The translations under genes and the position numbers were made by a program. This document shows positions 5,801 through 28,919 of a DNA stretch of 39,427 nt, in pieces. The DNA is from Candidatus Evtepia faecavium (GTDB lineage: Bacteria; Bacillota; Clostridia; Oscillospirales; Oscillospiraceae): contig DXDK01000082.1 of assembly GCA_019115545.1 (NCBI GenBank), positions 1-39,427 of the forward strand, in the 5' to 3' direction. The notes below the pieces were generated by a model. The model worked only from the letters and a program-made list of their open reading frames with translations. It was not told the DNA's origin and ran no database searches. Positions within the stretch are counted from its first letter, which is position 1, and each line of letters begins with the position of its first letter.

Positions 5801-5876
5801 GGGAGCATAGCTCAGCTGGGAGAGCACATGCCTTACAAGCATGGGGTCACAGGTTCGAGCCCTGTTGTTCCCACCA
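5801..5876 (+). tRNA. tRNA-Val (anticodon TAC), CCA encoded
   Basis: Cloverleaf gggagca...tgttccc-A-CCA; anticodon loop cttacaa; T-loop ggttcgagcc. Confidence 0.95.
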
Positions 5877-5886
5877 CCTGTCATTT

Positions 5887-5963
<77 letters not shown>

Positions 5964-5989
5964 AGGGGTACGGACCCGTGCCCCGATAT

Positions 5990-6065
<76 letters not shown>

Positions 6066-6092
6066 CGCTGCGGCACCTGCCGCAGCGGATCT

Positions 6093-6168
6093 GCGAGTGT
6101 AGCTCATCTGGTAGAGCGCCACCTTGCCAAGGTGGAGGTAGCGAGTTCGAGCCTCGTCACTCGCTCCA
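6093..6168 (+). tRNA. tRNA-Gly (anticodon GCC), CCA encoded
   Basis: gcgagtg...cactcgc-T-CCA; anticodon loop ttgccaa. Confidence 0.95.
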
Positions 6169-6171
6169 GAT

Positions 6172-6245
<74 letters not shown>

Positions 6246-27773: not shown

Positions 27774-27802
27774 TTGCTTTTTCCAAGGGAAAGGGGTATA
27801 AT
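27774..27802 (+). promoter_or_regulatory. Candidate promoter of the recombinase gene
   Basis: TTGCTT-N17-TATAAT. Confidence 0.55.
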
Positions 27803-27822
27803 AACAAAAACTCATACACCGA

Positions 27823-27844
27823 CATGCTCCCGAAGGGGAGCATG
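27823..27844 (+). terminator. Short hairpin upstream of the recombinase (terminator or leader hairpin)
   Basis: catgctccc-gaag-gggagcatg followed by cttttc. Confidence 0.5.
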
Positions 27845-27856
27845 CTTTTCCGGGAG

Positions 27857-27890
27857 ATAACTTCGTATAATGTAGATTTTGCGAAGTTCG
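27857..27890. other. loxP/dif-like tyrosine-recombinase target site
   Basis: ATAACTTCGTATA-ATGTAGAT-TTTGCGAAGTTCG; 28-bp core ACTTCGTATAA-TGTAGA-TTTTGCGAAGT fits 11-6-11 Xer geometry; located 42 bp before a Xer-type recombinase start codon. Confidence 0.75.
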
Positions 27891-27932
27891 CACCCCGGAA
27901 AACCGTGAGAGAAGAGAAAGGAGCGCTGCCCC

Positions 27933-28919
27933 TTGGCTGACTACCATCTGGAAGCTCCCCCCATTTTGCAGGAGTTCCTCAGCTACCACGAGTCCATTCT
28001 GTCCCACTCTGCCAAGACGGTGGATGAGTATTTCCTGGACCTGCGGAGTTTCTTCCGCTATCTGAAACTCCGCCGCAGCCCGGAACTGGGCCAGGTTCCG
28101 TTTCAGGACATCTCCATCCTGGACGTGGACCTGGACTTCGTGGCCAAGACCCAGCTGTCGGAGATCTACGGTTACCTGACCTTTCTTCCGGGCAACACCA
28201 AGTCCGGCAAGGCGGAGTCCTCCACCCGGGCCAGAAAGTGCGCTGCCATCCGCTCCTTCTTCAACTATCTCTGCGTCCACGCCCACCAGCTGGACACCAA
28301 CCCCACCCAGGCGCTGAACAATCCCAAGCTGCGCAAGGCGCTGCCCCGGTACTTATCCCTGTCTGAGAGCCTCCAGCTGCTGGAAGCCGTCTCCGGCCCC
28401 AACGAGGCCCGGGATTACTGCATCCTCACCCTGTTCCTCAACTGCGGCCTGCGGGTGGGCGAACTGGTGGGGCTGAACCTCCAGGACGTCCGGGAGGACA
28501 CCATTCGGGTGTTAGGCAAGGGCAACAAGGAGCGGCAGATCTACCTCAACGAGGCCTGTCTGGAGGCCATTGGGGCCTATCTGGCTGTCCGCCAGCCTCC
28601 CAAGGAGGAGCTGCGGCACAAGGACGCCCTCTTCGTCTCCCGGAACCGGACCCGGCTGACCACCCGGGCGGTGGAAAATATCGTCCAAAAGGCGGTGCGG
28701 AAGGCTGGGCTGGACCCGAAATACTCCCCCCACAAGCTCCGCCACACGGCGGCCACCCTGATGCTGAACAAGGGGGTGGACATCCGCACCCTCCAGGACG
28801 TCCTGGGCCACGAGAATCTGGGGACCACCCAGATCTATACCCATGTCTCCGACGCCAACATGAAGCAGGCGGTGGACGCCAACCCCCTGGCCCATGTGAA
28901 AAAAAGCCAGGAATCCTGA
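27933..28919 (+). CDS. Xer-family tyrosine recombinase, TTG start
   Basis: 328 aa; catalytic motifs CGLRVGEL, GKGNKER, HKLRHTAATLM, LGHENLGTTQIYTHV. Confidence 0.93.
   Translation: MADYHLEAPPILQEFLSYHESILSHSAKTVDEYFLDLRSFFRYLKLRRSPELGQVPFQDISILDVDLDFVAKTQLSEIYGYLTFLPGNTKSGKAESSTRARKCAAIRSFFNYLCVHAHQLDTNPTQALNNPKLRKALPRYLSLSESLQLLEAVSGPNEARDYCILTLFLNCGLRVGELVGLNLQDVREDTIRVLGKGNKERQIYLNEACLEAIGAYLAVRQPPKEELRHKDALFVSRNRTRLTTRAVENIVQKAVRKAGLDPKYSPHKLRHTAATLMLNKGVDIRTLQDVLGHENLGTTQIYTHVSDANMKQAVDANPLAHVKKSQES

Follow-up and report, generated by a model that had tools for sequence, protein, structure and literature searches.

Several of the described dif systems pair a chromosomal site with a single recombinase. 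XerS/difSL of streptococci and lactococci and XerH/difH of Helicobacter and Campylobacter are linked gene-site modules, and in the former a lone recombinase gene lies immediately beside a dif-like site at the terminus (PMC5357621, PMC2731167). The difSL site is 31 bp long; its arms are unequal, and its center spans 11 bp. The archaeal XerA/dif system, which has been described as FtsK independent, likewise uses one recombinase, and its site, located in the terminus region, is 28 bp long (PMC5357621). XerL of the Legionellales is also a single recombinase with uninterrupted inverted arms, but in L. pneumophila its gene and site are >400 kb apart, and, as the authors of that study pointed out, only partial symmetry is seen in other dif sites, including those of single recombinases (PMC9765430). 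The XerC/XerD systems of Bacillus and E. coli have a 28-bp site of 11-6-11 layout at the terminus, with distinct arms. A survey from 2011, based on XerCD-type profiles, gave predicted dif sites for 97 of 100 Firmicutes and left single-recombinase analogues to future work (PMC3025954). For the Oscillospirales, our literature search, mainly of papers available without subscription, found no dimer-resolution system.

The locus described here combines symmetric arms with gene linkage. In the 39,427-nucleotide stretch of "Candidatus Evtepia faecavium" that we analyzed (the window), a 34-bp sequence occurs once, at positions 27857 to 27890 on the plus strand. Its 28-bp core (27860 to 27887), ACTTCGTATAA-TGTAGA-TTTTGCGAAGT, lies between genes and has the makeup of a dif site, being noncoding and AT rich, with two 11-bp inverted arms around a center in the 6- to 8-bp range. 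The left arm (27860 to 27870) and the right arm (27877 to 27887) are complementary at 9 of 11 positions around the 6-bp center (27871 to 27876), and the arms are thus near perfect where those of difSL are unequal. A complete tyrosine recombinase gene follows on the same strand (27933 to 28919), with 42 bp between the 34-mer and the TTG start at 27933 and 45 bp between the core and the gene; this confirms the first-pass annotation, which had described both the site and the gene. That annotation had also taken a single copy per chromosome as favoring dif. Up to three mismatches being permitted, the core was found once in the draft assembly (148 contigs, 1.95 Mb, 97.8% complete), and relatives usually carry one perfect palindrome per genome.

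The site is conserved upstream of orthologous recombinases, as had been expected of a dif-type module. The sequence ACTTCGCATAATGTAGATTTTGCGAAGT stands upstream of the orthologous gene at eight congeneric loci, at a spacing of 30 to 33 bp in seven and 260 bp in one, and the copy in the window differs from it by a single base, C to T. At the locus with the wide spacing (L088, on G001:C69), about 230 bp intervene between the site and the gene, which are about 30 bp apart elsewhere. Outside the congeneric cluster the site sequences diverge while the layout stays constant: variants upstream of orthologs include ACTTCGCAAAA-TACTAA-TTTTGCGAAGT, ACTCAACAAAA-TAAAAA-TTTTGTTGAGT, AGTAAACAAAA-TAAAAA-TTTTGTTTACT, ATTGAACAAAA-TTTTTA-TTTTGTTCAAT, and ATTATACAAAA-TGAACA-TTTTGTATAAT, among others. 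In genus g109 of family f25, which we take to be Faecalibacterium-like, a related palindrome, GTTTCGTATAACCTGCATTATACGAAAT, and its variants lie downstream of the gene instead. The central 6 bp are found in both orientations with respect to the gene, and no rule was detected.

For the covariation test, sites were chosen on the inner 18-bp core only, to avoid selection by symmetry. This pattern matched a site within 350 bp upstream in 59 of 76 ortholog loci and had no match in 108.5 kb of downstream control sequence; given this result and the conservation among congeners, the site is more than a chance occurrence. The outer five arm pairs, which had no part in the picking, were complementary in 140 of 150 instances, against a mean of 83.4 and a maximum of 104 in shuffled comparisons. 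Across 30 distinct sites, 9 of the 11 pairs had changed on both sides and 96% of the cells paired, a figure that fell to 40 to 49% when the partner arm was slid by one to three columns; because a few sites in this alignment had been picked for being palindromic and the search had made use of the inner core, the 140/150 result is the cleaner test.

Covariation by itself would also suit an RNA stem, and in most genomes the palindrome lies within the 5' leader of the gene. It is therefore appropriate to consider whether the palindrome is an autoregulatory operator or a leader RNA hairpin and not a recombination site. The leader in the window folds far better than shuffled sequences (z = −6.5), although an Rfam search of it returned no match. 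Reading from 27774 to 27902, it consists of a promoter-like box, a GC-rich hairpin with a T tail, the site, and then the gene. The box, a tentative sigma-70-like promoter read by eye (TTGCTT-17-TATAAT, 27774 to 27802, plus strand), was not picked up by a consensus promoter scan of the sequence; its −10 element recurs at the same place in congeners. The hairpin, CATGCTCCC-GAAG-GGGAGCATG followed by CTTTT (27823 to 27849, plus strand), was found by RNA folding and resembles a terminator or attenuator; a terminator scan did not pick it up, similar hairpins are present in congeners, and an attenuator in the leader of the recombinase gene is possible. An outer inverted repeat, TTTTCCGGG (27846 to 27854) and CCCGGAAAA (27894 to 27902), encloses the site in the window and is absent from the congeneric upstream regions inspected.

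However, in a number of genomes the recombinase gene lacks an adjacent site, and several of these genomes retain a perfect palindrome elsewhere. It lies 6.5 kb from the gene in G044, about 48 kb from it in G155, and farther off or on another contig in G017, G020, G022, G024, and G030; G037 has a candidate with 10 of 11 pairs, and no site was found in G197 or G372. Since palindromes are kept at distances of 6.5 to 76 kb or on another contig, and in G022 and G030 lie between convergent genes, the palindrome is not merely an operator or a leader hairpin. Such a role would also leave the position at the terminus unexplained. We rejected it as the sole function and regard it as highly improbable, although the palindrome could have an added regulatory role besides recombination.

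The recombinase was identified from family profiles, PDB matches, and invariant residues as a Xer-type enzyme, with a SAM-like N-terminal domain and a Phage_integrase domain that carries the catalytic residues R174, K199, H267, R270, H293, and Y302, all of them unchanged in 80 of 80 orthologs. It was found in 51 of 60 relatives and, among the 397 genomes of the order that are at least 98% complete, in 385. Its scores fall below the NCBIfam cutoffs for XerC (238 against 335 bits), XerD (218 against 330 bits), and XerA (205 against 220 bits) and below the cutoff for XerS (154 against 267 bits), and the ortholog in G343 is likewise below the NCBI cutoffs for all four. The nearest solved relatives in a PDB search were XerA (E value of 2e−37), the best match, and XerD (4e−37), with XerH far behind (2e−14); no match to Cre was obtained at an E value of ≤0.001. 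Legionella proteins matched only distantly, at about 23 to 25% identity. In a FastTree phylogeny of 123 Xer proteins, a group of 16 XerD proteins was fully supported and 72 of the 80 dif-linked recombinases clustered with a support of 0.74, together with two unlabeled homologs; we therefore do not claim a strict clade of dif-linked recombinases.

From these comparisons the module is apparently distinct from XerS, XerH, XerA, and XerL, XerL and XerH having been compared by sequence similarity, which proved distant. The lone gene beside its site at the terminus recalls XerS/difSL, but the profile score, the 28-bp length, and the 6-bp center set the two apart. Linkage to a single recombinase is shared with XerH/difH, from which the protein is remote. 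A single recombinase and a 28-bp site are shared with archaeal XerA, although FtsK_gamma is present in the genome of the window, as it is in 7 of 7 genomes examined. Symmetric, uninterrupted arms are shared with XerL, but here the gene and the site are usually adjacent. The 11-6-11 layout is that of the XerC/XerD sites, and the core matches the B. subtilis dif sequence at 20 of 28 positions; unlike in those systems, the arms are symmetric, the protein scores below both cutoffs, and no XerD was found in the genus.

The first-pass annotation called the target unusually Cre/lox-like, and such a resemblance could point to a mobile element that uses the site for integration or inversion; in mobile elements, a recombinase gene beside its own site is common. 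The loxP site of phage P1 has 13-bp arms and an 8-bp spacer. Compared with the loxP string quoted in that annotation, the 34-mer matches at 27 of 34 positions, including the first 18, and the core matches at 23 of 28, with near-symmetric arms in both. The match itself stands, but its emphasis was overstated: the identity of the left arm to loxP depends on a T that is private to the window's copy, congeners having C, the B. subtilis dif is matched at 20 of 28 positions as well, and the PDB search found no Cre. Because congeners differ at that base and the enzyme has no Cre match, the likeness is best read as incidental, loxP being dif-like in layout and one private base adding to it. The covarying arms are organized as 11-6-11 and not as 13-8-13, and the protein is not detectably Cre-like. 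Moreover, a single site with no second copy leaves no flanked insert, nearly all genomes of the order carry the recombinase, and among solved structures XerA and XerD come closest to it. A Cre/lox-type mobile element was rejected on these grounds and seems to us scarcely credible.

Paired inverted sites with a dif-like core, about 250 bp apart, were observed in some relatives (L321 in G024, L322 in G086, L323 in G230, L325 in G155, and probably L324 in G122). They adjoin a different tyrosine recombinase open reading frame, ending ..GHSSIETTRIYL.., and in G155 the segment between them contains a TATAAT-like box. These pairs look like invertible promoter switches whose repeats are akin to the dif core; none was seen in the genome of the window. 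The window itself also carries five clustered tRNA genes (Val, Asp, Phe, Gly, and Cys) at 5801 to 6245.

It had further been proposed that the module works with a single recombinase, and this is indicated for Evtepia and some other lineages but not for the order as a whole. In the assembly of the window, the recombinase is the only PF00589 protein found, in a draft that is 97.8% complete, and neither XerD nor any other tyrosine recombinase turned up that would make up a canonical XerC/XerD pair. No XerD ortholog was detected in 16 genomes of the Evtepia group, several of them 97 to 100% complete; in G008, a weaker relative with 37% identity and a score of 140 bits is encoded at a contig end (C67). 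However, a true XerD, which scores 354 bits against the NCBI cutoff of 330, has orthologs in 29 of the 60 relatives, and most of the family's other genera are represented among these; it coexists with the dif-linked recombinase in most relatives outside the genus. In several complete genomes, the genes for XerD and the dif-linked recombinase are near each other at the terminus. In G030, a dif-like site was noted about 2.3 kb from xerD on contig C27 (204773 and 201560), with the dif-linked recombinase 32 kb off.

These XerD genes raise the alternative that the site belongs to an essentially two-recombinase system, formed by a diverged XerC and XerD, and that in Evtepia the partner has been lost or is merely missing from the drafts. 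We consider this unlikely. Symmetric arms that change together point to one protein on both, the site and the recombinase persist without XerD both in Evtepia genomes that are 97 to 100% complete and in G050, and the score of 238 bits on the XerC model is well under the cutoff.

To assess the position of the module, we used the 18 Oscillospirales genomes assembled as single contigs in which both dnaA and the recombinase could be placed. The recombinase lies at about 0.43 to 0.57 of the genome from dnaA in 17 of them (some genome lengths being rounded), the exception being G372, with a value of about 0.30. The GC skew of G343 changes from positive to negative at the site (1,667,624), and the cumulative maximum, at 1,670,000, is 2.4 kb from the site; in G005, of the same genus, the site (77,382) and the maximum (78,500) are 1.1 kb apart. 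In G022, where 76 kb separate the site (at 73 kb) from the recombinase (at 148 kb), the skew switch is broad; its maximum at 114 kb falls between the two and favors neither. In Evtepia gabavorous (G008:C1), the cumulative maximum falls 66 kb beyond the site; rearrangement or scaffolding may be behind this offset. Complete relatives thus have the site or recombinase near the pole opposite the origin and near the skew switch, the latter as the first-pass annotation had anticipated for dif. The 39-kb window has no skew flip, being too short to be informative, and the maximum in E. gabavorous is 66 kb off; the placement of this draft genome's own site at the terminus is therefore drawn from relatives.

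On the basis of the single copy, the covariation of the arms, the linkage to the gene, the terminus position in relatives, the catalytic residues, the lack of a detected XerD in the genus, and the presence of FtsK_gamma, the 28-bp palindrome very probably serves as the dif site of the chromosome and is recombined by the product of the adjacent gene, which in this genus would work without a partner. The single-recombinase dimer-resolution module suggested by the first-pass annotation is in this respect supported by its copy number, its linkage to orthologs, its position opposite the origin, and the genome's lack of a recognizable XerD. Counting against the dif reading are the draft state of the genome, the absence of a skew flip in the window, the 66-kb offset in E. 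gabavorous, the position at about 0.30 in G372, and the siteless G372 and G197. By the proposed mechanism, copies of the lone recombinase would bind the two near-identical arms, and in a chromosome dimer FtsK would bring two sites together at the septum. Tyr302 would cut at the borders between the arms and the center, and two successive strand exchanges over the 6-bp center would resolve the dimer into monomers.

A wider proposal, on which we consider the chances to be even, is that an additional Xer class, with a single recombinase and symmetric dif arms, is common to the Oscillospirales. Distinct from XerS, XerH, XerA, and XerL, it would resolve dimers alone across the order and may be activated by FtsK_gamma without XerD. 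XerD would then be redundant for resolution, perhaps kept for SMC unloading, and absent in several lineages, including Evtepia. Unloading of SMC at the terminus is a further role of XerD in B. subtilis (Karaboja 2021, as cited in PMC12322038), and by analogy this may be why XerD is kept in many relatives. The small, symmetric recombinase-site pair may serve as a tool, and in draft genomes the site would mark the terminus at the sequence level. The module would also offer a testable dimer-resolution system, with an exact site, for an order whose members are abundant in the gut. Because a like site and recombinase are retained both in lineages that have XerD and in lineages that lack it, nature would here have set up an experiment on how Xer proteins divide their labor.
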